Shown here: piece by piece, positions 8,141-27,390 of the stretch
How the letters are laid out: each line of letters begins with the position of its first letter
Numbering within the stretch: position 1 is the stretch's first letter
Assembly: GCF_001278705.1 (NCBI RefSeq)
Contig: NZ_CP012600.1
Location: forward strand, 2,915,917 to 2,979,916
DNA: 64,000 nucleotides
Reading direction: 5' to 3'
Source: Bacillus gobiensis
Lineage (GTDB): Bacteria > Bacillota > Bacilli > Bacillales > Bacillaceae
Program-made: the position numbers and the translations under genes
Notes under the pieces: generated by a model
Databases searched by the model: none
What the model was told of the DNA's origin: nothing
What the model saw: only the letters and a program-made list of their open reading frames with translations

Positions 8141-9118
8141 CTATTCTTTCACAAATTTTTTCGTACTTCGCACTGTATCAATCGGACGTACTATTTTTTC
8201 AATTTGCTCGCGTTTCGGTTCTAAAAATGGCGGCAGGGATAATTTTTCTCCCAGTGTTTCATACGGTTCGTCTCCCATAAAGCCCGGTCCGTCTGTGGCA
8301 AATTCAAATAAGATGTGCGGCGCAATTCTTGTGTACAATGATTCGAAAAAGTGTCGATTGACGTAGCCCGATGATTGGATTCCGAAGCTTTGCATCCGCT
8401 GAATCCATTCATTCAACACCGAACGATCTTCAACACGGAATGCCGCATGGTGAACTGTACCAAAGCCTTGTTGTGCTTGAGGAAGATTCACGTTTTGTTC
8501 CACGATGACTTGTGCACCGTTTCCTCCTTCACCGAATTCAAATAGATGAAAGGAATCTTCTTGCGCGATTTCTTTAAATAATAGAACCTTTTCCATCATT
8601 TCTTTAAAATGATCGAAATTCGCAATCGTGATAAAGATCGGGCCTAAACCGGTGATCGCATATTCCAGCGGGATCGGACCATTTTTCCACGGTGTACCGG
8701 AAGCAACTCCTTTATTGTTTTCGTCTGAGATGATTTGATATTGCTGGTCATCAAAATCGACAAAAGAAAGTGTCTTCTTGCCAAATTGTTCTTTGATGCC
8801 GGAGTGCTTTACTTCTAAGCGATCAAACCGTTTTTCCCAATAATCAAGTGCTACGTCGTCAGGAACTCGAAACGAGGTTTTTGAAATCTCATTGGTACCG
8901 TGAGTCCCTTTTGGAATGCCTGGGAAGTCAAAGAAGGTCATATCTGTTCCCGCACTGCCTTTATCATCTGCAAAAAACAGGTGATATGTTTGGATATCGT
9001 CTTGATTTACTGTCTTTTTCACTAAGCGCATCCCTAAAATATTTGTGAAAAAATCATAGTTTTTTTCCGCGCTGCTTGTAATCGCCGTTACGTGATGGAT
9101 TCCTTTTAAACCGTTCAT
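8141..9118 (-). CDS. Ring-cleaving dioxygenase of the VOC (glyoxalase) superfamily
   Basis: A 325-residue protein with two tandem VOC modules (about residues 1-135 and 150-320), starting MNGLKGIHHVTAIT. It belongs to the MhqA/MhqO/MhqE group of putative hydroquinone-specific extradiol dioxygenases, which bind a metal through His/His/Glu, seen here as the HH in the first motif, VHHAAF near residue 225 and a later Glu. It is last in a leftward operon behind an MhqR-like repressor, a second dioxygenase and a DoxX protein. The ATG at 9118 has a GGAGGGATG ribosome site. The role is inferred to be cleavage of hydroquinone- or catechol-type compounds. Confidence 0.85.
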   Translation of the reverse strand: MNGLKGIHHVTAITSSAEKNYDFFTNILGMRLVKKTVNQDDIQTYHLFFADDKGSAGTDMTFFDFPGIPKGTHGTNEISKTSFRVPDDVALDYWEKRFDRLEVKHSGIKEQFGKKTLSFVDFDDQQYQIISDENNKGVASGTPWKNGPIPLEYAITGLGPIFITIANFDHFKEMMEKVLLFKEIAQEDSFHLFEFGEGGNGAQVIVEQNVNLPQAQQGFGTVHHAAFRVEDRSVLNEWIQRMQSFGIQSSGYVNRHFFESLYTRIAPHILFEFATDGPGFMGDEPYETLGEKLSLPPFLEPKREQIEKIVRPIDTVRSTKKFVKE

Positions 9119-9139
9119 CGTTTCATCCCTCCATTTGAT

Positions 9140-9538
9140 TTAAAATATAAGCGCATCAATTGCATATTGTCCAGGCCCGGTCAATGTGATACCAATAGCG
9201 GCTGCTAATAGAACCAAATTATACTCGTAGCCATTTTCAGTCGCCCACAACCCGTTTGGTCCATGGACTTTCACAATAGCCATTACCATCGTTCCGGCAA
9301 TTGTTACTCCTGCCAGCGGTGTGAAAAGCCCCAAAGCGAATAATACCCCGCCAATCAATTCCGCCAGTCCCGCTGCTAACGCCATTGTAACACCCGGCTT
9401 CATGCCCATCGATTCAAACCAGCCGCCTGTTCCTTTTAAGCCATGCCCGCCAAACCAGCCAAACAATTTTTGCGCACCATGTCCGACAAAGAGCAGTCCA
9501 ATCACTAATCTTATCAACAATAATCCTGTATCTAACAT
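9140..9538 (-). CDS. mhqP: DoxX family membrane protein, MhqP-like
   Basis: A 132-residue protein with four predicted transmembrane helices and the glycine-rich DoxX signature (GHGAQKLFGWFGGHG near residue 22). In B. subtilis mhqP is induced by quinones together with mhqN and mhqO. The start is set at ATG 9538 because TAGGAG lies 8 bases upstream. A GTG three codons earlier would be too close. It sits between two dioxygenase genes, 21 bases from the distal one. The biochemical role of DoxX proteins is not settled. Roles in thiol or quinone redox balance have been proposed. Confidence 0.85.
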   Translation of the reverse strand: MLDTGLLLIRLVIGLLFVGHGAQKLFGWFGGHGLKGTGGWFESMGMKPGVTMALAAGLAELIGGVLFALGLFTPLAGVTIAGTMVMAIVKVHGPNGLWATENGYEYNLVLLAAAIGITLTGPGQYAIDALIF

Positions 9539-9556
9539 AATATTCACTCCTAATTG

Positions 9557-9578
9557 ATATATTATTAATTCGAGATAT
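9557..9578 (-). promoter_or_regulatory. MhqR-like operator half-site
   Basis: On the minus strand TATCTCGAATT (9578-9568) precedes the DoxX gene. This equals the left half of the known B. subtilis MhqR box (TATCTCGAATTCGAGATA), while the right half is decayed to ATAATATA. The position, about 20-40 bases before the start codon, suits repression of a mhqP-dioxygenase transcript by the neighbouring MarR protein. Confidence 0.55.
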
Positions 9579-9592
9579 ATAGCTAAAATTTT

Positions 9593-10534
9593 TTATCTTA
9601 ACGGTTTTAATTTGGCTTCGATTTCTTCCCTTTTTGGCTCAAGAAACGGCGGTAAAGCGAGTGATTCTCCTAAATGTTCGATATCTTCATCCGAATCGAA
9701 ACCCGGTCCATCGGTTGCTAGTTCGAAAAGAATCCCATTAGGTTCTCTGAAGTATAGCGAACGGAAGTAAAAACGATCAACAAACCCTGAATTAGGTATT
9801 TTCGCTTCACGAATTCGCTTTATCCATTCGTGCAGCTCTTCCTCATTATCTACGCGAAAGGCTACATGATGAACGCTGCCGCGTCCTTGGCGTTCGGGAG
9901 GGAAATCCGTCTTTTCTTCTACGTGAATTTCAGCACCAGTTCCGCCTTCACCCGTTTCAAGTACTACAGTGTCTTGCTCATTTCCTTTAATACGGAAGCC
10001 CAGCAGCTCTGTTAAAATGCCGATTGTAGCTTTTGCGTTTTTTACAGTTAATTTAACCGGACCTAAGCCGACAATTCCGTACTCTGCAGGGACCTGAGCT
10101 TTTTTCCATGGAATTCCGCCTTGGACTCCTTCATTATTTTCATCAGACACTAAAATCAAGTGCTGTCCCTCAAAATCCTTGAATGCTAAAGTGAAACGGC
10201 CAGCCTGATTGGCTATTTCTTCATGTTCAATATTCAATTCTTCGAAACGCTGCTTCCAGTAAGCGATCGCTCGATCATTTGGAACGCGAAGGGAAGTTGC
10301 GGAAATGCTGTTCGTCCCTTCATGCTTCTTCGCAATCATTGGGATTTCAAAAAAGGTCAATTCTGTACCGGGATTCCCTTTTTCATCTCCATAGAATAAA
10401 TGATAAACAGAAGTATCGTCCTGATTAACCGTCTTTTTCACAAGACGGAGACCTAATACCTTTGTGTAAAAATCAACGTTTTCACGAGCTTTTGCTGTTA
10501 ATGCAGATACGTGGTGAATTCCTTTTAATTCCAT
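9593..10534 (-). CDS. mhqO: Ring-cleaving dioxygenase, MhqO-like
   Basis: A 313-residue two-module VOC dioxygenase starting MELKGIHHVSALT, paralogous to the protein at 8141-9118 (same HH motif, VHHVAFRV near residue 215, ELATDGPGF near the C-terminus). The start is placed at ATG 10534 because AAAGGAGGGTG lies just upstream. The longer in-frame extension would run through the MarR stop codon. The stop of the regulator overlaps this ribosome site, so the two genes are translationally linked. Substrate is inferred from family to be methyl-hydroquinone-like or catechol compounds. Confidence 0.86.
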   Translation of the reverse strand: MELKGIHHVSALTAKARENVDFYTKVLGLRLVKKTVNQDDTSVYHLFYGDEKGNPGTELTFFEIPMIAKKHEGTNSISATSLRVPNDRAIAYWKQRFEELNIEHEEIANQAGRFTLAFKDFEGQHLILVSDENNEGVQGGIPWKKAQVPAEYGIVGLGPVKLTVKNAKATIGILTELLGFRIKGNEQDTVVLETGEGGTGAEIHVEEKTDFPPERQGRGSVHHVAFRVDNEEELHEWIKRIREAKIPNSGFVDRFYFRSLYFREPNGILFELATDGPGFDSDEDIEHLGESLALPPFLEPKREEIEAKLKPLR

Positions 10535-10547
10535 GAGACACCCTCCT

Positions 10548-10991
10548 TTATTTTTGAATTTTTTTGAGAAGCTCAAGCAGCTGTTTTTTTTCTTCATGGT
10601 TCAACTCGTTAAACTGAGCGGCTTGAAAATGCTCTTGCTTCGGAACTACTTCATCAAATAACGCTTTTCCGTTGTCAGTTAAGGAAAGATATTTTGTTTT
10701 CCATTCCTGCTCCCGTTTCACCAGCCCCAATTCTTCCATTTTGTTTAGTAGCTGCGTGATATTGCCTTTGGTGACAAGTAGCTTTTTAGCAAGCTCTTGC
10801 TGAGACAATCGCTTATGGGAGCCGACTTGAGCCAAAACATCAAATTGCGCTGCCGACAGGTCCCAATTTTTTAAATGCTGATTGGTTTCACGGATACTCT
10901 GATTATAAAAACGTGAAAGACGGAACCATAATAAAATACCGATTCGTTCATCTTGCTTCGATAAGGAGGAATCCGTTTTTCTTTCTTTCAC
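10548..10991 (-). CDS. mhqR: MarR-family repressor, MhqR-like
   Basis: A 147-residue winged-helix regulator. The recognition region (SQQELAKKLLVTKGNITQLL, about residues 63-82) and the basic wing (LVKREQEWKTKYLSLT) are typical of MarR. First gene of the leftward mhq-type operon, it probably represses its own operon and is relieved by quinones or hydroquinones, as MhqR is in B. subtilis. It contains no cysteine, in agreement with MhqR rather than with the thiol-switch repressors OhrR and YodB. The promoter upstream contains two similar operator-like repeats. Confidence 0.82.
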   Translation of the reverse strand: MKERKTDSSLSKQDERIGILLWFRLSRFYNQSIRETNQHLKNWDLSAAQFDVLAQVGSHKRLSQQELAKKLLVTKGNITQLLNKMEELGLVKREQEWKTKYLSLTDNGKALFDEVVPKQEHFQAAQFNELNHEEKKQLLELLKKIQK

Positions 10992-11206: not shown

Positions 11207-11530
11207 ATGGATCAGGATTTTAAGAAGAGATTGGCCACCCTTTTCAACGAAATAAATAAAGAAATCTTTAGAGTCGGCGTGCATGATCAAAATATTGAAA
11301 TACAGGATGGAAAGATTCTTATTTTCTCCAGATCTAAGCGTATCCCGGCTTTGGATGCTTTAATGGATGAACATAGTGAACTAGTCTTTTCAATTGATTA
11401 TGCTTTATCGCTAAAGTATAAAAAACTACTGAAAAAGAAAGTAGAGCAGGAGTTTGATATAAAAATAACCGCCTTATTCAGAGATTATGATCCTGGAAAC
11501 GAGCGCTCTTGCACAGTTATTTGCTATTAA
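11207..11530 (+). CDS. DUF2294 / MpsC-like small protein
   Basis: A 107-residue cytoplasmic protein. The order of helices and strands, and the C-terminal RDYDPGNER segment, suggest the DUF2294 (now MpsC-domain) family, named after a subunit of the Mps membrane-potential-generating system. It stands alone here, with no MpsA or MpsB partner in the window, so a role in that system is not supported locally. The start ATG follows AGGTGAAGAGACATA, a weak ribosome site. The protein ends with two cysteines in the last six residues. Confidence 0.5.
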   Translation: MDQDFKKRLATLFNEINKEIFRVGVHDQNIEIQDGKILIFSRSKRIPALDALMDEHSELVFSIDYALSLKYKKLLKKKVEQEFDIKITALFRDYDPGNERSCTVICY

Positions 11531-11633
11531 CATTTGAATAACAAACTTTGATTGTTGGAAACTCGTCATACTCGTTTTTTCAGCAACCCACATAAAGTTT
11601 TGTAGCGGACGCTTATCCTCTGTTTACGGATGG

Positions 11634-11690
11634 AAAGAGCCGTGAAGATGGAAGAATATATTTCTTCTATCTTCACGGCTCTTTTTTATT
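11634..11690 (+). terminator. Strong hairpin-T run ahead of the Rieske operon
   Basis: AAAGAGCCGTGAAGAT pairs with ATCTTCACGGCTCTTT and is followed by T6. It can end the MpsC-like transcript (stop at 11530), or act as an attenuator, because the Rieske gene starts only 35 bases later and no other clear promoter is seen in between. Confidence 0.8.
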
Positions 11691-11724: not shown

Positions 11725-12771
11725 ATGAAAGGAACTCCTACATTTAAAAATAAGGCCGTAGATCTTCCACGTGACTGTACATTTAGCTATGAGGATTGGA
11801 CTGTTTTAAGTAAATATTGGTACCCTGTCGCGCAACAGACGGAAGTTACTGAGAAACCGTTAGCCGTTAAGCTTCTTGATGTAAACCTAGTCGTCTATCG
11901 CACGAACAGTAAAATCGTTGTTGCCCGTGATCTTTGTGTTCACCGCGGGACTCCTCTCAGTATGGGATGGGTTGAGGGTGAAGATATCGTCTGTCCTTAT
12001 CATGGGTTTCGATACGGAACGGACGGCAAATGCACATCGATTCCAGCTCATCCAGATGCCAAAATTAATCCGCGCTTGTGTATGTCCGTTTATCCTGTTG
12101 TCGAACGGTTTGGATTAGTGTGGACGTCTTTATCGGGCGAAATCGACAATATGCCGTCATTTTCTGCTTGGGATGATCCGGATTTCCAACAGATTGTTTG
12201 TCCCTCGTTTGATATTAAAGGATCTGCCGGGAGACAAATGGAAGGGTTTCTCGATGTAGCCCACTTTGCCTGGGTGCATACGGAAACGTTCGGTGACCGA
12301 AACAACGCTTTTGTTCCCCGTTATCAGGTAGACAATACTGATTACGGACTGCACGTCGAATATTTGAGTACGGTTAGCAATTATCCGAAGGAAATGCAGC
12401 ACCTGAATCCGGAAGATTTCAAATGGCTTCGTGTCTTTGATGTATATCCTCCGTTTACAGCTACATTAAAGGTTTATTTTCCTAACGGGGGAGAATTGTG
12501 GATTATGAATGCCGTTTGTCCGATTTCAGCAAGAGAAACTAGATTGTTCGCTCCAATTGCGAGAAACTTTGACAAGGATTCTCCTGTTGAAGATGTCTAT
12601 GCGTTTAATCTTCAAGTGTTCACGGAGGACAGGGAAATGGTTGAAAACCAAAAGCCTGAAGATTTGCCGCTGGACTTGCAGATGGAGGCTCATATTATGG
12701 CAGACAAAACATCGGTTGCTTACCGGAAAATTCTTAAACAATTAGGTCTCGGAACAATTTATACGAGTTAA
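11725..12771 (+). CDS. Rieske non-haem iron oxygenase, alpha subunit (first copy)
   Basis: A 348-residue oxygenase. The Rieske [2Fe-2S] ligands are C71, H73, C90 and H93 (CVH...CPYHGF). The mononuclear iron site is FLDVAHFAWVH, with H180 and H185 and D177 bridging to the neighbouring subunit's Rieske centre. A conserved Asp in the C-terminal TEDREMVENQKPE supplies the third ligand. The size and the C-terminal pattern resemble monooxygenases of the caffeine N-demethylase (NdmA/NdmB), vanillate and phthalate families. It has no fused reductase. Electrons should come from the ferredoxin and reductase encoded next. The substrate is inferred from the adjacent purine permease. Ribosome site AAAGGATG. 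Confidence 0.87.
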   Translation: MKGTPTFKNKAVDLPRDCTFSYEDWTVLSKYWYPVAQQTEVTEKPLAVKLLDVNLVVYRTNSKIVVARDLCVHRGTPLSMGWVEGEDIVCPYHGFRYGTDGKCTSIPAHPDAKINPRLCMSVYPVVERFGLVWTSLSGEIDNMPSFSAWDDPDFQQIVCPSFDIKGSAGRQMEGFLDVAHFAWVHTETFGDRNNAFVPRYQVDNTDYGLHVEYLSTVSNYPKEMQHLNPEDFKWLRVFDVYPPFTATLKVYFPNGGELWIMNAVCPISARETRLFAPIARNFDKDSPVEDVYAFNLQVFTEDREMVENQKPEDLPLDLQMEAHIMADKTSVAYRKILKQLGLGTIYTS

Positions 12772-12794
12772 ATCAATGATTGGAGTATTCAAAT

Positions 12795-13775
12795 ATGAAA
12801 TTATACGACATTACAATTATTGGCGGAGGACCTACAGGGTTATTTGCCTCCTTTTACGGAGGAATGCGAAATTCTTCTGTAAAAATTATCGAAAGCCTGC
12901 CACAGCTTGGCGGCCAGCTTTCTGCTCTTTATCCGGAAAAATATATTTATGATATTGCCGGATTTCCGAAAATTCGAGCGCAGGAATTAGTCAATCGCCT
13001 GAAAGAGCAAATGGCTCAGTTCAATCCGGCGATTTGTTTAGAACAAGTTGCAAAAGGCCTTGAGATTCAGGGAGACGGAACGATTAAGCTGACCACTGAT
13101 AAAGAGGAGCATGTTACAAAAACGATCATTATCACAGCAGGTAATGGCGCATTTCAACCTAGAAAAATTGAGCTTGCAGCAGCAGAACAATACGAGAGTG
13201 CAAACCTACATTATTTCATCGATGACTTGGAAGCATTCCGTGGTAAGAAAGTTATGATCTGTGGAGGCGGGGATTCTGCAGTAGATTGGGCACTCATGCT
13301 CGAGCCGATCGCGGAGAAAGTAACACTCGTTCACCGCCGGGATAGATTCCGGGCACACGAACACAGCGTTGAACAATTACACGGTTCTAACGTAACGATA
13401 AAAACGCCTTATGTTCCGGCAGAGTTCGCCGGCAATGACAAAATCACAAAGGTCGTATTAGAGCATGCAAAAGACAGAACGAAAGAAGCCGTTGAGGTTG
13501 ATGATGTCATAGTAAACTACGGATTCATCTCATCGCTCGGATCTATAAAAAATTGGGGATTGGAAATTCAGAAAAATTCGATTGTTGTCAATTCTCGAAT
13601 GGAAACAAACATTCCGGGAGTTTATGCAGCAGGTGATGTATGCACATTTGATGGAAAAGTGAAGCTGATTGCTACCGGTTTTGGCGAGGCGCCTACCGCA
13701 GTAAACAACGCGAAATCATACTTAGATCCAAAATCAAAAGTCCAGCCGCTTCATAGTACGTCGGTATTTGCTTAA
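12795..13775 (+). CDS. NAD(P)H-ferredoxin reductase, YumC/TrxR-like type
   Basis: A 326-residue flavoprotein with an FAD-binding GGGPTG near residue 10, a second Rossmann motif [10 protein letters not shown] near residue 156 for NAD(P)H and the C-terminal [14 protein letters not shown] motif. It lacks the CxxC of thioredoxin reductase, which identifies the thioredoxin-reductase-like ferredoxin-NADP+ reductases (YumC, YcgT). ATG 12795 is chosen because GGAG lies 9 bases upstream. A TTG at 12780 has no site. It sits between a Rieske oxygenase and a ferredoxin gene, so it very probably powers both oxygenases. Confidence 0.88.
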
Positions 13776-13790
13776 AAAGGAGATAAATAA

Positions 13791-14030
<240 letters not shown>

Positions 14031-14046
14031 ATTGGAGGAATAGAGG

Positions 14047-15042
14047 ATGGCTAAAGATCCGGTATTAGCAAATGATTGGCAGCCTGCAGCATATTCGCAC
14101 GAGCTGACAGATGATCCTATGCAAGTCGTCATTTTGGGAGAGCGGATTGTGCTATTTCGAACGAGTAATGGAATTCAAGCCTTTAAAGATTTGTGTATTC
14201 ATCGAGGTGCTGAGCTATCACTCGGAAAAGTAGAAAATGACTGTATTGTCTGTCCTTATCATGGCTGGGAATACAATACAGAGGGCAATTGTGTCAAAAT
14301 TCCGCAGCAGCCACCTGGCCGAGTCATACCGCCGAAAGCAAAAGCAGTCGTCTATAGCTGTACAGAAAAATACGGACTCATTTGGGTGAAATTATCAGCT
14401 AGTGAGAACCCTGTCCCAGAGTACGTCGAATTCGAGGATCCTTCGTTTAAGACTGTGTTTGCGAATCCGCATACGCTGCATGCTGCTGCACCTCGAGTTG
14501 TTGAAAACTTTTTAGATGTCAGCCATCTGGCTTTCGTGCATGAAGGCATTCTTGGTGACTCAAATTATGCTGAAATCCCTGATTACAAAGTACATTGGCG
14601 AGAAAACCGCTTCGTTACTGATGAAATCCCTGTCTATGCAGATGCCGATGGGACAGGAAATTATGCAACCATCCACTATACGTTTGAAATTTTAAGTCCA
14701 ACATTGGCTCGGTTGAAAAAAGTAAATTATGAAACGAAAGAGATTTTTTCCATGCTATTTGCCGTTCGCCCTGAGGAAGAGAGAAAATCAACGGTGTTTG
14801 CCTTAGTTTCAAGAAATTATGGATTTGATCAACCCGATCAATATTTTCGCGATTTCCAGCAGGTCATTATCGAACAGGATACAACGGTCGTCGAAAGCCA
14901 GAAACCTGAGGAGCTGCCGCTGGATTTACAGGCAGAGCTGCACCTTACACCGGACAGGCTTAGTATTGCTTATAGAAGATGGCTGGGCGAGTTAGGTATC
15001 ACGTTCGGAAGCGAAGCGGGACGTAAAAAGGTCACAACTTAA
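14047..15042 (+). CDS. Rieske non-haem iron oxygenase, alpha subunit (second copy)
   Basis: A 331-residue paralogue of the first oxygenase. Rieske ligands are C50, H52, C69 and H72. The iron site FLDVSHLAFVH has D157, H160 and H165. The third ligand is the Asp in EQDTTVVESQKPEE. Two different oxygenases sharing one ferredoxin chain would suit successive or position-specific reactions, as NdmA and NdmB remove different N-methyl groups of caffeine. The two could also form a hetero-oligomer. GGAGG lies 8 bases before the ATG, and the gene follows the ferredoxin after 16 bases. Confidence 0.87.
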   Translation: MAKDPVLANDWQPAAYSHELTDDPMQVVILGERIVLFRTSNGIQAFKDLCIHRGAELSLGKVENDCIVCPYHGWEYNTEGNCVKIPQQPPGRVIPPKAKAVVYSCTEKYGLIWVKLSASENPVPEYVEFEDPSFKTVFANPHTLHAAAPRVVENFLDVSHLAFVHEGILGDSNYAEIPDYKVHWRENRFVTDEIPVYADADGTGNYATIHYTFEILSPTLARLKKVNYETKEIFSMLFAVRPEEERKSTVFALVSRNYGFDQPDQYFRDFQQVIIEQDTTVVESQKPEELPLDLQAELHLTPDRLSIAYRRWLGELGITFGSEAGRKKVTT

Positions 15043-15066
15043 CTTTACATGATAAAAAGGAGGCGA

Positions 15067-16425
15067 ATGGAATTGCCGTTACATGAAAAAACGGAGAATG
15101 CTACGAATGCAAGCAACTGGTTAGATCAATTTTTTCGTTTAACAGAACGTCGCACGAATGTAAAAACTGAGGTTCTTGCAGGGATTACAACATTTATGAC
15201 AATGAGCTATATCATTTTTGTGAATCCTGCCATTTTAGCAGATGCAGGTATCCCAAAAGAAGCCGCCATTGCTGCGACAATTTTTGCCACTGTCCTTGCT
15301 ACCCTTCTCTTTGCATTATGGGCGAATATGCCAATTGCTGTAGCGCCGGGAATGGGACTTAATGCTTTTTTTGCGTATACGGTCGTATTAGGCCAAGGAT
15401 TAACCTGGCAAACAGGATTAGGGGCCGTTTTTATTTCGGGATTGGTATTTTTTATCCTGACAATCACCGGATTACGCAAAAAAATTATTGATGGAATCCC
15501 TTCGGTGTTAAAAAGTGCAATTGCTGTCGGAATCGGGTTATTTATCGCTTTTATCGGGTTTAAACAAGCCGGAATTATTATAAGCAATGAGGAAACCTTT
15601 GTTTCACTTGGTGAAATCACAAAGCCTGCCCCTTTACTCGCTCTCATTGGTTTTCTAATCGTCACCGTTTTAACGGCCAGAAAAATCAAAGGAGCAGCGC
15701 TAATTTGTATTTTGCTGCTTTCGATTGTCGGGATGTTTATAGGAATTGTAGAAGCGCCAAAAAGTGTGAATCATATTTTGTCTTTTTCGCTTCCAAGTAT
15801 GTCTGAAACTTTTTTACAAATGGATATAAAAGCTGCTCTCCATTACGGCCTCCTTTCTATCATTTTTTCTTTCACTCTTGTCGAGCTTTTTGATAATTTA
15901 GGCTCTATGATCGGGCTGTCTAAAAAGGCTGGATTAATGAACAAAAAAGGCGAGATTGAAGGTCTGGATAAAGCATTGGTTGCAGATTCTGTCGCTACGA
16001 TGGCAAGTGCCGCAATGGGGTCTACAGCGATGAATGCATATGTAGAAAATGCAACAGGTATTGCAGAAGGCGGAAGAACAGGGCTAAAGGCGCTCGTAGT
16101 AGCATTTCTTTTTCTGTTAAGCATTTTGTTTACTCCTTTAATCAGCATTATTCCAGCGTTTGCAACAGCTCCTATTTTAATTATGGTCGGAGCTTTTATG
16201 CTGACGGAAATAAAGAATATTCCATTAGGCGACGTAACAGATGCTGTACCTGCTTTTCTTACCATTATCCTTATGCCTTTAACGTTTAGTATTGGTGAAG
16301 GATTAACATTCGGTTTCTTATCCTTTACATTCATTAAGTTATTGACAGGAAAAGCGAAAGAGATTCATTGGATCATGTATGTGATTAGCGCTGCTTTTAT
16401 TGTCAACTTTATTTTTCATGTGTAA
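15067..16425 (+). CDS. AzgA-family purine base permease
   Basis: A 452-residue membrane protein with about 12-14 helices, clearly in the AzgA/PbuG/PbuO branch of the nucleobase-cation symporters: N-terminal NVKTEVLAGITTFMTMSYI, then ANMPIAVAPGMGLNAFFAYTV, and GSTAMNAYVENATGIAEGGRTG in the middle. Members import adenine, guanine or hypoxanthine. It follows the second Rieske gene by 24 bases in the same direction, the best clue that the oxygenases act on a purine. An ATG at 15067 directly follows AAAAAGGAGGCGA. TTG at 15073 would have a better 9-base spacing, so the exact start is uncertain. Confidence 0.87.
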   Translation: MELPLHEKTENATNASNWLDQFFRLTERRTNVKTEVLAGITTFMTMSYIIFVNPAILADAGIPKEAAIAATIFATVLATLLFALWANMPIAVAPGMGLNAFFAYTVVLGQGLTWQTGLGAVFISGLVFFILTITGLRKKIIDGIPSVLKSAIAVGIGLFIAFIGFKQAGIIISNEETFVSLGEITKPAPLLALIGFLIVTVLTARKIKGAALICILLLSIVGMFIGIVEAPKSVNHILSFSLPSMSETFLQMDIKAALHYGLLSIIFSFTLVELFDNLGSMIGLSKKAGLMNKKGEIEGLDKALVADSVATMASAAMGSTAMNAYVENATGIAEGGRTGLKALVVAFLFLLSILFTPLISIIPAFATAPILIMVGAFMLTEIKNIPLGDVTDAVPAFLTIILMPLTFSIGEGLTFGFLSFTFIKLLTGKAKEIHWIMYVISAAFIVNFIFHV

Positions 16426-16546
16426 TTGGAAAATTAATAGTTAAATAGTACTGAAAATATTTAATAACATCGTCCTTAGTTTTCGTATAAAAATTATATT
16501 ATACTCTATGAATTATTATATTTTTACTATTAGAAGGAGGATTTTT

Positions 16547-17392
16547 ATGAAAAAAAAGTTACTGGCATTGTTCACGATTGTTGCATTAATTTTAGGTTTT
16601 CAAGGATTCACTGCGCTTGCGAAAAACAATCAATCGCAGAAAGAGTCTTCTCAGCCTATTGCAGTTCAAGGCGCGATGGATATGGAGATTTCTGCTCTAC
16701 TTAAGAAAATGGGGGAATATAAAGAAGAAACCCACGGCAGCTACACATTTTATCGCGGGAAAATTAATGGTATACCCGTCATCGTTTCAAGAACTGAAGT
16801 AGGGATGGTTCACGCAGCTGCTTCTACTACATTGCTAATCGAAAAATACCATCCAAAAGCGATTATTAACCAAGGTACAGCAGGCGGCCATGATCCGAAG
16901 CTCCACGTCTTTGATACCGTAATCGGAACTGAAGTCATGAATATCGGCAGATTCATTACGGATCATAGGGATGACGGCGAAGGAATGAAGCCAGAATCAT
17001 GGAAATTTGATGGTACGGGCATGAGAGAAAACGGCGAACTAAAGACATACGAAACATTTAAGAGCGATCCCAAGCTAGTGAAGGCGGCATTAAGTGTAGC
17101 TGATAAGTATAAGCACGGAAAAGTGGTTAAAGGAAAAGTCGGCAGTGCAGACGTTTGGAACAGAGAAGTCGATCGCATTCAATGGTTCCATGAAAAGGCA
17201 GGAACAAGTGTAGAAGAAATGGAAGCTGCTTCAGTCGGCCAGGTGTCAAAAAGCTATGACGTTCCTTACTTATCTATCAGAACCGTGTCAAACTCTGAAG
17301 TATCCGGAGATAAAATTGAGGACTTGGAAACGGCGGGAAAATACGGCGCTGAATTTTCCGTGGAAATTGTGAAGGCTATTGGGAAAAAATAA
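16547..17392 (+). CDS. Secreted MTA/SAH-nucleosidase-like nucleoside hydrolase
   Basis: A 281-residue protein with a signal peptide (KKK, hydrophobic core to residue 20, FTALA|KNN cleavage near residue 25). The mature part is a PNP/UDP phosphorylase-superfamily fold of the MtnN type: INQGTAGG, VGSADVWN and a VEEMEAASVGQVSKSY motif with the ribose-binding Glu. MtnN proteins hydrolyse methylthioadenosine, SAH and 5'-deoxyadenosine to free adenine and are cytoplasmic, so secretion is unusual. Its position behind the permease suggests that it releases a purine base outside the cell for import. It has its own GAAGGAGG ribosome site and ends at a terminator. Confidence 0.82.
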   Translation: MKKKLLALFTIVALILGFQGFTALAKNNQSQKESSQPIAVQGAMDMEISALLKKMGEYKEETHGSYTFYRGKINGIPVIVSRTEVGMVHAAASTTLLIEKYHPKAIINQGTAGGHDPKLHVFDTVIGTEVMNIGRFITDHRDDGEGMKPESWKFDGTGMRENGELKTYETFKSDPKLVKAALSVADKYKHGKVVKGKVGSADVWNREVDRIQWFHEKAGTSVEEMEAASVGQVSKSYDVPYLSIRTVSNSEVSGDKIEDLETAGKYGAEFSVEIVKAIGKK

Positions 17393-17550: not shown

Positions 17551-17831
17551 TTCACACCTGAGTTTTTCTTTTCTTAATCAAGTCCGAAGCATCCGACAAT
17601 GACTGCGTTTTCTCGGCCATCCAAAATATCCATGTGATTTTTCACAAAAGAAAAATCGGTATTTTTACAAATATCTAAGACTCCAATTATTTTAACTTAA
17701 CATTTTCATATTAAGATACATATGGGATCTTTAAGATGATTTTGGGGCGAAGAATACCACCTGTTAATCGATTTTTTACGGTCCGAATCATTTTAAAATT
17801 TTTTTACTCACTTAAAAATCAGGAGGATGAA

Positions 17832-18782
17832 ATGATGAAAAAAGCCATTTTTGTACTAGCTGCCATGCTTGTTATTGGAACAGGAGCAACAGTGCTTGCA
17901 AATCCTGACACGCTATCTTCTGATAAAGAAGGAAAACAACTGACAGAAAAATTCCAACAACTTACTCGAGATAATGGTTGGGAACAGAAAGAAGAAATCG
18001 ATCTGAAATTTAACACATATCATCCACAAGGATTGACGAAAGTTGGAGACTTGTACTACATGTCTTCTGTAGAAATCATTGAAAAACCTGTTAAATACGA
18101 CAAGCCGAAAGACGGTTATGATCGTACTACTGGTAAAGGTGTCGGACACCTTTTTCTTTTTAACAAAGAAGGAAAGCTTCTAAAAGATATAAAGCTTGGT
18201 GAAGGAGATATGTATCATCCCGGAGGAATTGCATTTGACGGTACATCGATCTGGGTTTCTGTTGCAGAGTATCGCCCAAATAGCAAGTCCATCATTTATA
18301 AAGTGAATCCGGAAACGATGGAGTCCCAAGAAGTATTTCGCACGAATGACCACATTGGAGGAATACTTCGTGATAGAAAAAAAGGAACTTTAAAAGCTAT
18401 TAGCTGGGGTTCAAGATCATTTTATGAGTTTAATGAAAAAGGAAAAATTCTTCGAAAATCAAGTAATCCTAGCCACTTTATTGATTATCAAGACTGCGAG
18501 AATGCTGGAAAAAACCATATGGTATGCAGTGGTATCACTGAATTGCCGCAACCAGCACCATCAACTGCGAAATATGAATTGGGCGGACTAGCCTTACTGG
18601 ATATGAAAACAATGGATATGGTTCATGAACTGCCAATTTCTCTGTTTTCTCCTAAAGGACATGTTGTAACACGTAATCCAGTATTTCTTGAAAATACAAC
18701 ACAAGGAATTAAACTGTACGCTGTACCTGATGATGATCAATCATCAATGCTAATTTATGAAACAAATATTAGTAAAAAATAA
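17832..18782 (+). CDS. Secreted DUF6454-like protein
   Basis: A 316-residue exported protein with signal peptide MMKKAIFVLAAMLVIGTGAT ending at VLA|NPD. The mature part has repeated beta-rich segments (HPQGLTKVGDLYYMSS, HPGGIAFDGTSIWVSV) like a small beta-propeller or SGL-type lactonase scaffold, and I believe it belongs to DUF6454. The ATG pair at 17832 and 17835 follows AGGAGGATGA. It stands alone between terminators, downstream of the nucleosidase but not in the same transcript. No catalytic function can be assigned. Confidence 0.65.
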   Translation: MMKKAIFVLAAMLVIGTGATVLANPDTLSSDKEGKQLTEKFQQLTRDNGWEQKEEIDLKFNTYHPQGLTKVGDLYYMSSVEIIEKPVKYDKPKDGYDRTTGKGVGHLFLFNKEGKLLKDIKLGEGDMYHPGGIAFDGTSIWVSVAEYRPNSKSIIYKVNPETMESQEVFRTNDHIGGILRDRKKGTLKAISWGSRSFYEFNEKGKILRKSSNPSHFIDYQDCENAGKNHMVCSGITELPQPAPSTAKYELGGLALLDMKTMDMVHELPISLFSPKGHVVTRNPVFLENTTQGIKLYAVPDDDQSSMLIYETNISKK

Positions 18783-18792
18783 TTTTCAGATG

Positions 18793-18826
18793 AAAACTTT
18801 GATGCCGAACATCAAAGTTTTCTTAT
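18793..18826 (+). terminator. Intrinsic terminator after the DUF6454-like gene
   Basis: Twelve-pair perfect stem AAAACTTTGATG / CATCAAAGTTTT, loop CCGAA. It lies between convergent genes. Confidence 0.75.
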
Positions 18827-21556: not shown

Positions 21557-23167
21557 ATGTATGCTGATGTCGTGATGTATAACGGTAGTATTGTGTCGAT
21601 GGATAAGAATAAAAGAGAGTACGAAGCGCTTGCAGCTAAAAATGGCCGAATCATCGGGCTTGGCACGAAAAAAGACATGGAAAAATGGCTGGGAGATCAG
21701 ACTGTTTCCATTGATTTGGAAGGGAAAACGGTTCTCCCCGGTTTCATTGATGCCCATCAGCACATGGTCAACTTCGGCTTTTATTTGTCACAGGTCAATT
21801 GTAACGTCGATTCTATCAAGGATCTTGTCAATGCCGTTAAAGAGAAGGCCGCAACGTTAAACAAGGACGATTGGGTGATTGGAATCGGCTTTAATGAAGA
21901 GAAACTCCAAGAAAAAAGAATTCCAACCGCTGCTGATTTTGCCGAAATCTCTAACCCGGTTTATATCTTAAGGAATTGCCTTCATACGGCTGTCGTCAAT
22001 CAAACTACGCTGCAGCTGGCAGGCATCAATGAAAATACTTCGGATGTAGCTGGCGGTGAAATCGTCCGAGATATGAACGGCAGGCCAACAGGCATTTTGA
22101 AGGAAAAGGCAGCCGACATCGTAAAACGCATACTCCCCCCTTTCACACTGGACGAAATCAAAGATGCAATCACCTTTGCAGATCGTGAGTATACAAGCCT
22201 CGGAATTACTGGCGTGCATGAAGCCGGCATGGGCTTTTTCACTAACTCGATGAACGAATTTCGCGCGTTCCAGGAAATGAGCATCGATCGGTCGCTGAAC
22301 GTGAGAGTGTACGGTATGATCCTTGATTCATTTTTTGAAGCTGCAAATGAATTGATGCTCACGACCGGATTCGGAAACGACAAGCTGAAAATCGGATCGA
22401 TCAAAATGTTTTCGGACGGCACCTTAAACGGCAGGACCGCCGCTGTTTCTGAAGAGTACATTAATCCTGCTGGAGAGCGCGGTGCCATGGTGATTAGCAC
22501 GGAGGAATTAGAGAAAAAAGTGTTAGATTACCATCGCGAAGGGTTTCAAGTGGCGATTCACGCAATAGGCGACCGTGCCATCCTTCAGGTGATTGCCGCT
22601 TACGAAAAAGCTTTGAACGCATTCCCGCGGGCCAATCACAGGCATCGAATCGAGCATACGAGCGTCACAACACCGGAAATTATCGAAAGATTAGCTGAAT
22701 TGAAGCTTATCCCCGTTCCTCAGCCAAGCTTTCTGAACGCTGCCGGGGATGTGTACAACAAAGTCTTGCAGCCGAAAGTCACGGAGCGTCTCAAACCATT
22801 AAAAACCTTTTTCGAAAGGGGGATAAAAGCAGCAGGAAGCTCGGATTGCCCGGTTGTAACCAGCTCACCTCTCTATGGCATGTATTGTGCGATGAAGCGG
22901 GAAACGCTAAAAGGTACTGTCCTGTCACCTAAAGAACGCCTTTCATTAGAGGAAGCTCTTCAAATGTATACCGTGAATGCGGCGTATGCGGCTTTCGCCG
23001 AGCATGAACAAGGGACGCTGGAAATTGGTAAATTTGCCGACGCAGTCGTCCTCCCTAAAGGGTTTATGTCTTTTTCTGCGGAAGAAGTGCGGGATACAGC
23101 GGTTGAGATGACGATAATTGGCGGCGAAATAATTTATAAAAAAGAAAGAGCAAAAATATTACATTAG
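21557..23167 (+). CDS. Amidohydrolase superfamily protein, YtcJ-like
   Basis: A 536-residue metal-dependent hydrolase. The beta-strand-1 metal motif is DAHQH (H67, H69). Later VAIHAIGDRAI, HRIEHTS and GSSDCPV carry the further His/Asp ligands. It is of the YtcJ/AepA type, which generally act on amides, N-acyl groups or cyclic ureas of unknown identity. The first gene of a five-gene rightward run, it has a GGGAGGGATG ribosome site and is followed by an aminotransferase after 14 bases. I infer that it releases an amine or amino acid that the aminotransferase then consumes. Confidence 0.85.
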   Translation: MYADVVMYNGSIVSMDKNKREYEALAAKNGRIIGLGTKKDMEKWLGDQTVSIDLEGKTVLPGFIDAHQHMVNFGFYLSQVNCNVDSIKDLVNAVKEKAATLNKDDWVIGIGFNEEKLQEKRIPTAADFAEISNPVYILRNCLHTAVVNQTTLQLAGINENTSDVAGGEIVRDMNGRPTGILKEKAADIVKRILPPFTLDEIKDAITFADREYTSLGITGVHEAGMGFFTNSMNEFRAFQEMSIDRSLNVRVYGMILDSFFEAANELMLTTGFGNDKLKIGSIKMFSDGTLNGRTAAVSEEYINPAGERGAMVISTEELEKKVLDYHREGFQVAIHAIGDRAILQVIAAYEKALNAFPRANHRHRIEHTSVTTPEIIERLAELKLIPVPQPSFLNAAGDVYNKVLQPKVTERLKPLKTFFERGIKAAGSSDCPVVTSSPLYGMYCAMKRETLKGTVLSPKERLSLEEALQMYTVNAAYAAFAEHEQGTLEIGKFADAVVLPKGFMSFSAEEVRDTAVEMTIIGGEIIYKKERAKILH

Positions 23168-23181
23168 AGGAGGAAATTAAA

Positions 23182-24513
23182 ATGAACAAAACAATAACGA
23201 ATGAAATGACACACAGCATTGAAGAATTACGGGAGCTGGATAAAAAGCACTATCTGCATCCTTCTTCTTCGATTAAACAACATCAGGAAGAAGGACCGGC
23301 CGTCATTTTTACGGAAGGCAGCGGAATCTATTTGAAGGATATACATGGAAACACGGTGATCGACGGACTTTCATGCCTTTGGAATGTCCATATCGGCCAC
23401 GGAAGACAGGAGCTTGGCCAAGTCGCTCTAGAACAAATGTCCAAGCTTGCTTACAGCTCAAGCTTTACCACATTCAGCCATGAACCCGCCATCCGATTGA
23501 CAGCCAAATTAGCGGAAAAGGCTCCCGGAAATTTGAATACCGTCTTCCTTACGTCAGGTGGCTCGGAATCAAACGATACAGCGTTCAAGCTGGTCAGACA
23601 CTACTGGATGCTGAAAGGGAAGCCGGAGAAAAAGAAAATTGTTTCGAGAAAACGGTCCTATCACGGGGTGGCAATGGGAGCAACGAGTGCCACAGGCCTT
23701 GAAGCGTTCCGCAAGTTTACCCCTTCAACCGCTCCGGATTTTTATCATATTGACAATTATTCCGTTGAGGCGTTTAAAGAGTTTATTGAATCAGAAGGTG
23801 CTGACACGATCGCCGCGTATATTTCGGAGCCGATTCAAGGTACGGGCGGGGTTATTTTCCCTCCTGAAAATTACTTTATAGAAATAAAAGCGCTTTGTGA
23901 GCAGCATGACATTTTGTTCATTGCCGACGAAGTCATTACGGGTTTCGGCCGGACAGGTACATATTTTGCCGTGGAGCAATTCGGAATCACGCCTGATTTG
24001 CTTTGCTTTGCGAAAGGAGTTACAAGCGGTTATATGCCTCTTGGGGGTGTGATCATTTCTGAAACGATCTACAACGATTTGATTGAGCTTTCTGAAGGAA
24101 CGTTCTTCCACGGATATACGTACAGCGGACATCCGACAGCGTGTGTTGTAGCCTTAAAAAACATGGAAATCATTGAGAGCGAGCAGCTCGTTGAGAATGC
24201 CAAAAGAATGGGTGAAGAATTATATAGAGGATTTAGAGAGTTGCAACAAAAGCACGCAATCATAGGGGAAGTAAGAACCTTCGGCTTGCTTGGCGCGATT
24301 GAATTGGTAGAAGACCAAGAAACGAACAAACGATTTTCAGAGCCAATCGCACCGAAGTTAGTTGCTGATTTGCAGCAGCGTGGACTGATTTGCCGCGGAA
24401 TTACGTATGAAGGAGCGGATTCGTTAGTATTTGCTCCACCGCTGATCATTACGAAGGAGCAAATAAGCGAAATCATTACTGTTTTAGACGATGCCTTTAC
24501 AGTTTTGCAATGA
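23182..24513 (+). CDS. Class III PLP-dependent aminotransferase
   Basis: A 443-residue fold-type I enzyme. The PLP lysine is K278 in CFAKGVTSGYMPLGG, the phosphate-binding TSGGSESND is near residue 131, and IADEVITGFGRTG holds the Asp that contacts the pyridine nitrogen. Class III enzymes move an amino group from omega-amino acids, diamines or amino sulfonates to pyruvate or oxoglutarate. The N-terminal LWNVHIGHG and the overall pattern are close to omega-amino acid:pyruvate and taurine:pyruvate types. The stop overlaps a possible start for the next gene, so they are probably coupled. Confidence 0.88.
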   Translation: MNKTITNEMTHSIEELRELDKKHYLHPSSSIKQHQEEGPAVIFTEGSGIYLKDIHGNTVIDGLSCLWNVHIGHGRQELGQVALEQMSKLAYSSSFTTFSHEPAIRLTAKLAEKAPGNLNTVFLTSGGSESNDTAFKLVRHYWMLKGKPEKKKIVSRKRSYHGVAMGATSATGLEAFRKFTPSTAPDFYHIDNYSVEAFKEFIESEGADTIAAYISEPIQGTGGVIFPPENYFIEIKALCEQHDILFIADEVITGFGRTGTYFAVEQFGITPDLLCFAKGVTSGYMPLGGVIISETIYNDLIELSEGTFFHGYTYSGHPTACVVALKNMEIIESEQLVENAKRMGEELYRGFRELQQKHAIIGEVRTFGLLGAIELVEDQETNKRFSEPIAPKLVADLQQRGLICRGITYEGADSLVFAPPLIITKEQISEIITVLDDAFTVLQ

Positions 24514-24536
24514 GCGATATCGGAAAGGAGAGTTTT

Positions 24537-25556
24537 ATGAGAGATAAAAAGGTATTCTTAGTCGCCATTTCCTTTTCACTCCTAACGATTTTATCTGCTT
24601 GCGGATCTTTAGGTTTAGCCAAATCAGAAAATTCCACAGCGAAAGGATATACCTTACGATTGACTCATGTTGTTTCAGAAAGCCACGCCTCCCACCGAGC
24701 TCTTGTCCAGCTGCAAAAAGGCTTGGAAGAAAAAACAGACGGAAGATTAAAGCTTGAGATTTATCCAGGAGGACAGCTGTACGGTTCTGATCGGGAAGCC
24801 GTTGAAGCTGTCCAGCTGGGCAATATTGAGATGACGGTTGTCGCAACGCCAACGATTTCAACGTTTAATAAAAAGTTCATGGTCTTCGATTTGCCGTTTT
24901 CATTTCAGTCGATTGAAGAAGCGAGAAAAGCCGTCGATGGAAAATTGGGAAAAAAATTAAACGAGGACCTTCTCTCTAATGGATTGGTGAGCCTGGGATA
25001 CGCTGAAAACGGGTTCCGCCAGATTGCCAATAATACCAAGCCGATTGAAACGCCGGATGATTTAAAAGGCTTAAAATTACGGGTTATTGAGAACAAGCTC
25101 TATCAGGAGACGTTTAACGAATTAGGAGCTAATGCGTCACCGCTTAGTTTTTCCGAAACATATTCTGCCCTGCAGCAAGGAACCTTTGATGGTATGGACA
25201 ATCCTGTTACGCTTATTTATTCGTCAAAATTTTATGAGGTGCAAAAATATTTGACATTGACTCACCAGGTGTACGCTCCTCTCATTACCGTAATAAATAA
25301 AGACTTTTTTGATCAATTGCCGAACGATCTTAAGCAAATCCTAAAGGAAGAAACAAGCAAAGCCAACCAAGTGCAGCGATCATTTACACAAGAGCAAGAA
25401 GAAAAAAATCTGGCGGAGTTAAAGGAAATAGGAATGAAAATCAATCAATTAACACCGGAGCAGGAAGCTGTATTTAAAAAAGAATTAGAACTGGTTATCA
25501 AAAAATATGAGAAACTCATCGGCCCTGAAACGATGAACTTGATGCAGCAACAGTAA
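24537..25556 (+). CDS. dctP: TRAP transporter substrate-binding lipoprotein (DctP family)
   Basis: A 339-residue solute-binding protein with a lipobox LSAC (C22) for membrane anchoring, as expected in a Gram-positive. The DctP fold is shown by LTHVVSESHASHRAL, GNIEMTVVATP and the arginine-containing KGLKLRVIENKLYQET near residue 180, the usual carboxylate-binding region. ATG 24537 is selected because GGAAAGGAG precedes it. It forms a complete tripartite TRAP system with the next two genes, which imports an organic acid by sodium symport. Confidence 0.9.
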   Translation: MRDKKVFLVAISFSLLTILSACGSLGLAKSENSTAKGYTLRLTHVVSESHASHRALVQLQKGLEEKTDGRLKLEIYPGGQLYGSDREAVEAVQLGNIEMTVVATPTISTFNKKFMVFDLPFSFQSIEEARKAVDGKLGKKLNEDLLSNGLVSLGYAENGFRQIANNTKPIETPDDLKGLKLRVIENKLYQETFNELGANASPLSFSETYSALQQGTFDGMDNPVTLIYSSKFYEVQKYLTLTHQVYAPLITVINKDFFDQLPNDLKQILKEETSKANQVQRSFTQEQEEKNLAELKEIGMKINQLTPEQEAVFKKELELVIKKYEKLIGPETMNLMQQQ

Positions 25557-25578
25557 AATAGTTGGGAGGGAAACGATC

Positions 25579-26055
25579 ATGCTTGCCCTGTTGGATAAAA
25601 AACTTGAAGAAATATTATTGGTAGCCGCTCTTGCCTTTATCGTCATTCTTGTCTCCCTTCAGGTTCTTACCCGATATGTTCTCGATGTCTCATTGGGATG
25701 GAGCGAGGAATTGTCCAGGTACATTCTTATATGGATTGCGTGGATTGGGACAAGCTATGCGGTTCGGGTAAACAGCCATATTCGGGTCGAGCTTATTAAA
25801 AAAATCATTCCGAAGCACTTGTTGAAATGGTTTGAGTGCTTCGTGTTGTTTATTTGGTTTCTGTTTGCTTTTTTCCTTGCGTATCAAGGAACCATCTTAA
25901 TTATGAAAATGAAAATGACGGGGCAATTAAGCCCTTCGATAGAAATTCCGATGTGGATCCTTTACTTGATCGTTCCGATTGGCGGGGGCTTAATGAGCAT
26001 TCGATTGCTTCAAAAAATGTATATAGTTCTCAGTTCCAAGGAAAGAGAGGGGTAG
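25579..26055 (+). CDS. dctQ: TRAP transporter small membrane subunit (DctQ)
   Basis: A 158-residue protein with four membrane helices and the DctQ signature LGWSEELSRYILIWIAWIGTSYAVR. It links the binding protein to the large permease subunit. It is placed between dctP and dctM with gaps of 22 and 3 bases. Confidence 0.9.
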   Translation: MLALLDKKLEEILLVAALAFIVILVSLQVLTRYVLDVSLGWSEELSRYILIWIAWIGTSYAVRVNSHIRVELIKKIIPKHLLKWFECFVLFIWFLFAFFLAYQGTILIMKMKMTGQLSPSIEIPMWILYLIVPIGGGLMSIRLLQKMYIVLSSKEREG

Positions 26056-26058
26056 CCA

Positions 26059-27390
26059 TTGATCACACTATTTTTGTTCATTGTCTTGTTGGCACTCATT
26101 TTTTTAAGTGTTCCGGTTGGAATCTCTATCGGGATGGCAACCTTGTTAACGATCGTGTTTTTCAGTGATAATATTCCTCTACTTACGATGGCACAAAAAG
26201 TATTTACCTCACTGGATTCGTTTCCGATTATGGCAATTCCGTTTTTTATGCTGGCTGGTATCTTGATGGGAAAAGGCGGCATTTCGAAAAGACTGCTTGA
26301 TTTAGCCGGCTCTCTGATTGGCTTTGTTAAAGGCGGCCTCGCGATGATGACGGTTCTTGCCTGTATGTTCTTTTCAGCCATTTCCGGCTCCGGACCGGCA
26401 ACTGTCGCAGCGATTGGCTCGTTTGTCATACCAGCGATGAAAAAGGAGCGCTACGGAGCAGGATTTGCATCAGCGTTAACCGCATCGGGAGGCGCAATCG
26501 GTGTTATTATCCCGCCCAGCATTCCTTTTGTTCTGTTTGGTGTGACAGGAAATGTTTCCATCGGCAAGCTGTTTATGGCAGGCATTCTGCCGGGAGTTCT
26601 TATCGGGATCTTGTTAATGGCAGTCTCGTATCTCATTCTTGTGAGAAAAGGCGTGGGAAACATAAAAACAGATATCGAAGTCGCTGCATCTTTAGAAACC
26701 GGGATGGCAGGCGCAAAAAAAGGAATTAACGTCAAACATCTATTAAAAACGATTTATGATGCGAAATGGGCGCTGCTTACCCCCGTCATTATACTTGGCG
26801 GGATTTACGGGAGTATTTTTACACCGACTGAAGCCGCGGCTGTTGCGATCATTTATGGGTTTGTCGTTGGTAAATTTCTGCACAAAGAGCTAAGCTGGAA
26901 GGATATCTACGACAGTATGGTTGAAACGCTTAAAATTGTTGGCGCTACGTTGTATTTAATCGCATTATCTGTGTGCTTCGCCTATGTTTTAAATATTGAG
27001 AATATTCCCCAAACGATTGCCGAAGCAATTACCTCATTTTCTGATAACAAGTATATCGTCATGCTATTGATCATTGGATTTCTACTGATTGTAGGATGTT
27101 TTATCGACACGATCCCCGCTATTCTGATTTTGACTCCAATTTTTCTGCCGATTACAACTCAGGTTGGGATTGACCCTGTTCATTTTGGAGTTATCATGGT
27201 GATGGCTTTAGCTATCGGCTTTATTACTCCGCCGTTTGGAGCCAACTTATTCGTTGCCACGGCGATCGGCAAGGTATCCATCGAACAAATATCGAAATCA
27301 GCCATCCCCTTCTTTTTAGTAATGGTGCTCGGGCTGTTAATTATCGGCTTCATTCCGTTTCTATCGATGTATTTGCCTTCTCTTCTTTGA
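26059..27390 (+). CDS. dctM: TRAP transporter large permease subunit (DctM)
   Basis: A 443-residue protein with about 12 helices and two DctM hairpin motifs, GSGPATVAAIGSFVIPAM and a later region with GFITPPFGANLF. It forms the transport channel. It starts with TTG at 26059, preceded by GAGAGGGG, and lies 3 bases after dctQ. Its transcript runs into the transposon-like element at 27420, whose internal hairpin at 27467 now serves as a terminator. Confidence 0.9.
   Translation: MITLFLFIVLLALIFLSVPVGISIGMATLLTIVFFSDNIPLLTMAQKVFTSLDSFPIMAIPFFMLAGILMGKGGISKRLLDLAGSLIGFVKGGLAMMTVLACMFFSAISGSGPATVAAIGSFVIPAMKKERYGAGFASALTASGGAIGVIIPPSIPFVLFGVTGNVSIGKLFMAGILPGVLIGILLMAVSYLILVRKGVGNIKTDIEVAASLETGMAGAKKGINVKHLLKTIYDAKWALLTPVIILGGIYGSIFTPTEAAAVAIIYGFVVGKFLHKELSWKDIYDSMVETLKIVGATLYLIALSVCFAYVLNIENIPQTIAEAITSFSDNKYIVMLLIIGFLLIVGCFIDTIPAILILTPIFLPITTQVGIDPVHFGVIMVMALAIGFITPPFGANLFVATAIGKVSIEQISKSAIPFFLVMVLGLLIIGFIPFLSMYLPSLL

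Follow-up and report, generated by a model that had tools for sequence, protein, structure and literature searches.

In textbooks, the molybdenum enzyme that serves purine breakdown is xanthine dehydrogenase (XDH). What might be the role, in a Bacillus, of an operon that joins two Rieske oxygenases to an electron chain and a purine permease? The question is raised by Bacillus gobiensis (NZ_CP012600.1, assembly GCF_001278705.1), of which we analysed a stretch of 64,000 nucleotides, called here the window; coordinates given without a locus name are positions in it. Six rightward open reading frames, close-packed, run there from 11725 to 17392, the first five separated by 6-16 bases. A first-pass annotation had assigned these consecutive genes to families, and open reading frames, Pfam and solved-structure matches agree with it. 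Our answer, to which we give about three chances in four on the basis of sequence comparison and distribution, is that the operon encodes a molybdenum-independent purine hydroxylase: the first oxygenase (Rie1) would work with a ferredoxin, a reductase and the permease, the second (Rie2) sharing the chain. The proposal of a Gram-positive system for purine oxidation, equipped with a purine permease and an electron chain of its own, is supported. N-dealkylation by Rie1, put forward at the same time, fares badly: the protein is HpxD-like, and its genomic signature is the absence of PucD, a protein of the PucABCDE XDH of Bacillus.

An HpxD-type oxygenase and its proposed electron chain

Rie1 (11725-12771, forward strand) matches the Pfam Rieske and VanA_C models over their cut-offs. 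Its Rieske motif is made of C71/H73/C90/H93 (CxH...CxxH), its mononuclear iron motif of D177/H180/H185 (DxxHx4H), and D302 is invariant in 43/43 aligned rows. The catalytic residues announced by the first-pass annotation are indeed there, as regards the Rieske and mononuclear-iron motifs of Rie1 and Rie2 and the cysteines of the ferredoxin. The best solved-structure match of Rie1 is NdmA, with 167 bits, and this match is what had led to the view of an N-demethylase. A search of plasmid records gave another picture, with a Paraburkholderia gene annotated 'hpxD: molybdenum cofactor-independent xanthine hydroxylase subunit HpxD', and a second search found that name in Klebsiella, Pantoea and Erwinia and in a single Acinetobacter record. 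With Klebsiella HpxD, Rie1 shares 53% identity over 335 residues (96% of its length), and with the Paraburkholderia protein 55%, while these two are 55% identical to each other. It shares 33-34% of its residues with the ndm pair of a caffeine degrader, the range becoming 33-35% when Rie2 is counted together with the ndm proteins.

A tree of 43 rows (L018 was dropped by a motif filter and ten others were left out by choice) places Rie1 within the HpxD clade with a support of 100/99. The ndm-like pair from Paraburkholderia caffeinilytica, identified as such from its gene cluster, the record not being so named, falls outside both the Rie1 and the Rie2 clades. Long-branch attraction between ndm and HpxD may affect this tree; the grouping of Rie1 with HpxD is independent of the place where those two branches join, and is therefore unaffected. 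Rie1 thus probably belongs to the HpxD family and is probably not an N-demethylase. We propose that it is a hydroxylase of xanthine, perhaps also of hypoxanthine: HpxDE is reported to perform both steps, hypoxanthine to xanthine to urate (PMC7373994). A literature search (most subscription journals not covered) found no paper on HpxD in Bacilli. The nearest earlier mention is that of 'ndmA' homologues in Bacillus aryabhattai, the function of which is not established there (PMC8055839).

Next in the operon comes a ferredoxin-NADP reductase with a thioredoxin-reductase-like fold (12780-13775, forward strand; Pfam Pyr_redox_2), which matches 3lzw, 'Ferredoxin--NADP reductase 2', with 549.5 bits and 6gas with 550 bits. 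We take it to be of the YumC/FNR2 type. The Fer-type ferredoxin that follows (13791-14030, forward strand; Pfam Fer4_13) matches 1iqz with 113.5 bits, all four cysteines, C12, C15, C18 and C62, being aligned, and its cluster is probably [4Fe-4S]. Neither an HpxE-like nor an NdmD-like reductase was found among the operon proteins by Pfam and sequence comparison. The Paraburkholderia gene annotated hpxD is likewise without HpxE, and is followed by a rubredoxin and an FAD oxidoreductase (L287:9956-12379). Beyond the window Rie1 is found in 30 places, two genomes entering this count twice, and 15 of the places have a homologous ferredoxin no more than 2 kb away; where there is no adjacent partner, a housekeeping ferredoxin is presumably the electron source.

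Is this ferredoxin new for its enzyme class, as first claimed? The claim was too wide, since single-cluster [3Fe-4S] ferredoxins are already established for type V Rieske systems in Kweon's classification (PMC2358900). What stands is that the protein differs from HpxE and from the Paraburkholderia rubredoxin, so that novelty holds at most for HpxD-like enzymes, within the literature searched. The same source gives type V systems an oxygenase, a small single-cluster non-Rieske ferredoxin and a flavin reductase, as here, but with three cysteines, a [3Fe-4S] cluster and a GR-type reductase, whereas the window has four cysteines and a TrxR-like ferredoxin-NADP reductase.

The fifth gene (15049-16425, forward strand) codes for an AZG/AzgA-type purine-base permease (Pfam PF00860 Xan_ur_permease, 174.8 bits), with the adenine/guanine permease AZG1 as best solved-structure match (221 bits). 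Bacillus sp. 03113 (L008) has Rie1, reductase, ferredoxin, Rie2 and permease in the order of the window, at 82-88% identity. Locus L011 has Rie1, ferredoxin, Rie2 and permease, the reductase being located further along. The grouping in the window is therefore more than chance. The permease is also found 3' of Rie2 in L057, as it is in L008 and L011.

Rie1 against xanthine dehydrogenase and the urate genes

To see where Rie1 is found we used the 397 genomes of the order of the window (the order set), searched for OHCU decarboxylase, PucD and Rie1/Rie2. Of these, 83 have OHCU decarboxylase (82 over cut-off), 59 score over the cut-off for PucD and 21 carry Rie1. All 21 are OHCU-positive, and Rie1 was found in none of the 314 OHCU-negative genomes. 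Rie1 was initially recorded as the second match of the Rie2 query (E 1e-57 to 1e-67); all 21 cases were confirmed at 63% identity to Rie1 or more, four of them via loci sharing identical contig coordinates. Rie1 and PucD occur together in a single OHCU-positive genome, that of the window itself; 20 have Rie1 without PucD, 52 PucD without Rie1 and 10 neither. PucD is absent in 20/21 Rie1 genomes versus 10/62 of the other OHCU-positive genomes (Fisher p 7e-11, a descriptive value, since the 21 Rie1 genomes fall in five genera). By the PucD test, then, Rie1 would stand in for XDH in 20 of the 21, and not in B. gobiensis. Five of the Rie1 genomes in the order set possess uricase but lack PucD, so that the swap is with XDH and does not follow uricase loss.

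Gene neighbourhoods show the same opposition. We read those of OHCU decarboxylase in 81 of the 83 genomes, leaving out G231 (broken copy) and G412 (below cut-off): Rie1 is present in 11, XDH in 30, both in none. Conversely, around the 30 Rie1 places, OHCU decarboxylase lies within 6 kb in 16, Rie2 in nine and XDH in none. Terrilactibacillus has PucR, then OHCU decarboxylase, HIU hydrolase, Rie1 and ferredoxin, so that Rie1 adjoins HIU hydrolase, and a Sporolactobacillus-like genus has Rie1, ferredoxin and an NCS2 permease together with HIU hydrolase and OHCU decarboxylase. The Paenibacillus locus L018 lines up Rie2, Rie1, OHCU decarboxylase/HIU hydrolase, allantoinase, AllC, PucG, a flavoprotein discussed below (FAD472) and a deaminase. 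The name PucG is putative, no model being over cut-off, and the last is presumably a guanine deaminase, its match being to the deaminase family only.

A separate set was drawn from a single scan for relatives of Rie2, in which 355 were confirmed and the best 80 retained. Among those best 80, 13 loci have at least 65% identity to Rie2, and 11 of their genomes were examined: OHCU decarboxylase is in 11/11, a Pfam uricase in 1/11 and a MoCoBD_2 protein in 3/11. A Rie1 orthologue (at least 62%) is found in 10/11; the remaining genome is a draft, split into small contigs.

Several observations weigh against a clean replacement of XDH by Rie1. The 21 genomes come from five genera only and their counts are not independent; 8/20 of those negative for PucD encode a molybdenum-hydroxylase relative that matches more weakly, under the PucD cut-off; and the ten OHCU-positive genomes with neither protein have to be set beside them. 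A MoCoBD_2 protein accompanies Rie1 in 4/12 Rie1 genomes of a set of 48 that were searched (G002, G006, G023 and G047), two of which, G023 and G047, have uricase as well; in G047 Rie1 is near the puc cluster. Two other Rie1 genomes, besides that of the window, probably keep the XDH gene set. The reductase is within 6 kb of Rie1 in just 3/30 places besides the window. Finally, B. gobiensis itself has the XDH set, PucD scoring 1013 bits, over its cut-off, and the pucE, pucC and pucB models slightly below theirs.

The B. gobiensis chromosome has the Rie1 operon some 490 kb away from the puc cluster. It carries OHCU decarboxylase, an HIU-hydrolase homologue, allantoinase and an intact FAD472 (L292:9265-10701), and no Pfam uricase was found in the genome. 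On paper the Rie1 system is redundant there with XDH; it may act under molybdenum limitation, or on another purine.

How would the system operate? Its chemistry, the electron path and the substrate of Rie2 are what we infer from the genes and their distribution. Electrons would go from NAD(P)H to the ferredoxin-NADP reductase, then to the Fer-type ferredoxin, and from there to the two iron sites of Rie1, its Rieske cluster and its mononuclear iron. With O2, Rie1 would hydroxylate xanthine at C8 to give urate, and perhaps convert hypoxanthine to xanthine, as reported for HpxDE. Urate would enter the OHCU/HIU/allantoin route, whose genes lie in another part of the chromosome. The permease would bring in purine bases, and Rie2, drawing on the same electron chain, would act on a related purine, most simply hypoxanthine.

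The second oxygenase and the urate step

Rie2 (14047-15042, forward strand) also matches the Pfam Rieske and VanA_C models over cut-off, with motifs C50/H52/C69/H72 and D157/H160/H165. Its best solved-structure match is SxtDIOX (205 bits), the next being NdmA (168 bits). It is 35% identical to Rie1 and 32-35% to HpxD. The tree unites it with orthologues from Rie1-bearing Bacilli in a clade of its own (100/99), which is neither HpxD nor Ndm. Rie2 occurs only alongside Rie1 in the order set (10/10 genomes) and is absent from 11/21 Rie1 genomes, which makes it look accessory. Its sister clade (about 50% identity) stands divergently beside an NCS2 permease in 36/41 scorable loci; that of L064, the sole member scanned, is PbuX-like, at a score below the cut-off of that model. 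OHCU decarboxylase accompanies this sister clade in 5/35 genomes searched, and in 1/20 in the order set. Further away, a Rie2-like Rieske protein (47% identity) is encoded in a Desulfurococcaceae archaeon (L059:8001-13454) ahead of genes for a Bmp/PnrA-like substrate-binding protein and an ABC transporter, and a distant member of the clade lies near adenosine deaminase in a Chloroflexi genome. The clade is purine-linked, and the substrate of Rie2 is likely to be a purine.

Rie2 need not belong to the same route as Rie1. A reading only somewhat short of an even chance is that Rie1 is the xanthine hydroxylase while Rie2 demethylates or hydroxylates some modified purine, merely sharing the electron chain and the permease. 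The 11 genomes where Rie1 seems sufficient by itself speak for it, as do the two steps reported for HpxDE (PMC7373994) and the company kept by the wider clade, in the archaeon and in the Chloroflexi genome. Against it, no Rie2 orthologue of the order set occurs without Rie1, as would be expected if the two shared one pathway leading from hypoxanthine to urate.

An observation of its own concerns the next step. A FAD/NAD(P) flavoprotein, which we call FAD472, sits at the position of uricase in Bacilli urate clusters (L018:15064-16482). Sequence comparison detects no homology to HpxO. FAD472 is present in 12/12 OHCU-positive, uricase-negative genomes tested, in two pieces in two of them, and is full length in 1/6 uricase-positive genomes. 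The 81 OHCU neighbourhoods contain uricase in 42 cases, FAD472 in 13, both in none and neither in 26. In G346 and G159 FAD472 is flanked by OHCU decarboxylase and HIU hydrolase, and a Priestia filamentosa plasmid has it behind uraD-uraH. Four alphaproteobacterial relatives (41-43%) have no uraD, uraH or uricase nearby, one being beside an XDH-family gene, so that any inference about urate is limited to the Bacilli form. That form may be a new, non-homologous urate oxidase.

Taken together, these pieces allow for a tentative and, we think, rather unlikely extension: some Bacilli would oxidize the whole purine ring with neither molybdenum nor uricase, Rie2 converting hypoxanthine to xanthine, Rie1 xanthine to urate and FAD472 urate to 5-hydroxyisourate, the dedicated Fer ferredoxin and reductase feeding both oxygenases.

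That Rie1 acts in place of uricase, making 5-hydroxyisourate from urate to feed OHCU decarboxylase directly, is improbable. B. gobiensis and 10/11 of the Rie2-orthologue genomes do have OHCU decarboxylase and no Pfam uricase, and the contact with HIU hydrolase in Terrilactibacillus would fit; yet uricase is found together with Rie1 in five order-set genomes that lack PucD, as well as in G023 and G047, FAD472 suits the missing uricase better, and HpxD is annotated as a xanthine hydroxylase. Replacement of uricase by the Rieske pair had been our first idea, and was dropped given FAD472 and those five genomes. Still less probable is that both oxygenases are N-demethylases of methylated purines in the manner of NdmA/NdmB: NdmA heads the structure matches of Rie1 and is among the best of Rie2, whose sister clade, with purine permeases as neighbours and the urate route mostly absent from its genomes, would make sense with a salvageable product, but Rie1 is much closer to HpxD and in its clade, the operon has no NdmD-like or HpxE-like reductase, and Rie1 travels with urate-route genes.

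Neighbouring genes, known relatives and significance

The sixth gene (16508-17392, forward strand) codes for an exported protein resembling MTA/SAH nucleosidases (PF01048 PNP_UDP_1; best solved-structure match 5b7g, 233.6 bits), its signal-like N terminus being recognized by eye. It had been made the secreted entry point of the pathway. No match of at least 150 aa to it was found in any related locus searched, which puts it outside the conserved unit; nor was any such match found in these loci for the following gene (17736-18782), a DUF6454 protein whose N terminus also looks signal-like by eye and which is followed by a terminator (18792-18822, from the pattern scan). We take both to be local additions. 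The first-pass annotation had staked its case on purine kinship and on linkage: we found no non-purine placement in the tree, and the permease is linked to the oxygenases in some relatives, the nucleosidase in none of those searched.

Upstream of Rie1 lies the gene of an MpsC-like small protein (11207-11530, forward strand). Homologues (59-70%) precede Rie1 in L008, L010 and L011; its product shares 42% identity with a protein that is annotated as MpsC family and belongs to a uraD-uraH-FAD472 cluster (L303:2225-2569), and L172 has a homologue as well. It is possibly part of the same network. A pattern scan for terminators gave 8 sites in the region against 6.8 expected, near chance overall, but the intrinsic terminator just upstream of Rie1 (11636-11682, forward strand) folds far better than shuffles (z -9.2). 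It is part of a conserved element, 11603-11690 (GCGGAYGCTTA...TCTGTT...ACGGA, then the terminator), set between the MpsC-like gene and Rie1 and common to L008, L010, L011 and the FAD472 locus L172/L174 of Priestia aryabhattai. The element was at first read as a leader of Rie1, but since the L172/L174 copy is also beside an MpsC-like homologue it may be the conserved 3' end of the MpsC-like gene; an attenuator is possible as well. Searched against Rfam for a riboswitch, the window, L089, L008, L142 and L018 gave no family at or above its gathering score. A palindrome, TGTnAGA-N4/5-TnACA, lies some 90-140 bases before Rie1 in several Priestia and Sporolactobacillus-like loci and one of Paenibacillus (L155, L156, L255, L266, L285, L286, L289-L291), where it is a possible shared operator; with up to three mismatches it has two matches in the window, neither near the operon.

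Elsewhere in the window, 21557-27390 holds an amidohydrolase, a class III aminotransferase and a TRAP transporter (DctP, DctQ, DctM) behind a divergent LysR gene, and looks like a separate catabolic operon. At 8141-10991, two glyoxalase-family ring-cleavage-like proteins flank DoxX, with a MarR regulator.

How does the system compare with those already known? Most likely, judging from its proteins, it is an HpxD-type xanthine hydroxylase in Bacilli: the swap is known from Klebsiella, the electron chain differs and a second Rieske protein has been added. Klebsiella has uraH, uraD, an NCS2 permease, hpxO, hpxR, hpxD and hpxE in one neighbourhood, so that uraD, uraH and a nucleobase permease are near the oxygenase there as in Rie1 relatives, and the oxygenases share family and clade. 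The window operon, by contrast, has ferredoxin and ferredoxin-NADP reductase in place of HpxE, and adds Rie2 and an AZG-type permease; the urate step of Klebsiella is that of HpxO, to which FAD472 shows no detectable homology. With NdmA/NdmB, Rie1 shares the Rieske and VanA_C architecture and, as proposed, purine-type substrates, but it stands with HpxD in the tree and the operon has no NdmD-like reductase. PucABCDE would catalyse the same proposed reaction among the same neighbouring urate genes; it is an unrelated molybdenum enzyme, and within the order set it and Rie1 exclude each other almost entirely, though both are found in B. gobiensis.

On this evidence, the family of HpxD-type oxygenases would have been combined with no fewer than three kinds of electron partner: HpxE, rubredoxin and Fer ferredoxin. 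Should FAD472 prove to oxidize urate, a new family would be added to an enzyme activity that matters medically in hyperuricaemia. And the near mutual exclusion of PucD and an HpxD-type iron enzyme, across five genera of one order of Bacilli, makes the replacement of a cofactor testable in tractable hosts such as Priestia megaterium.

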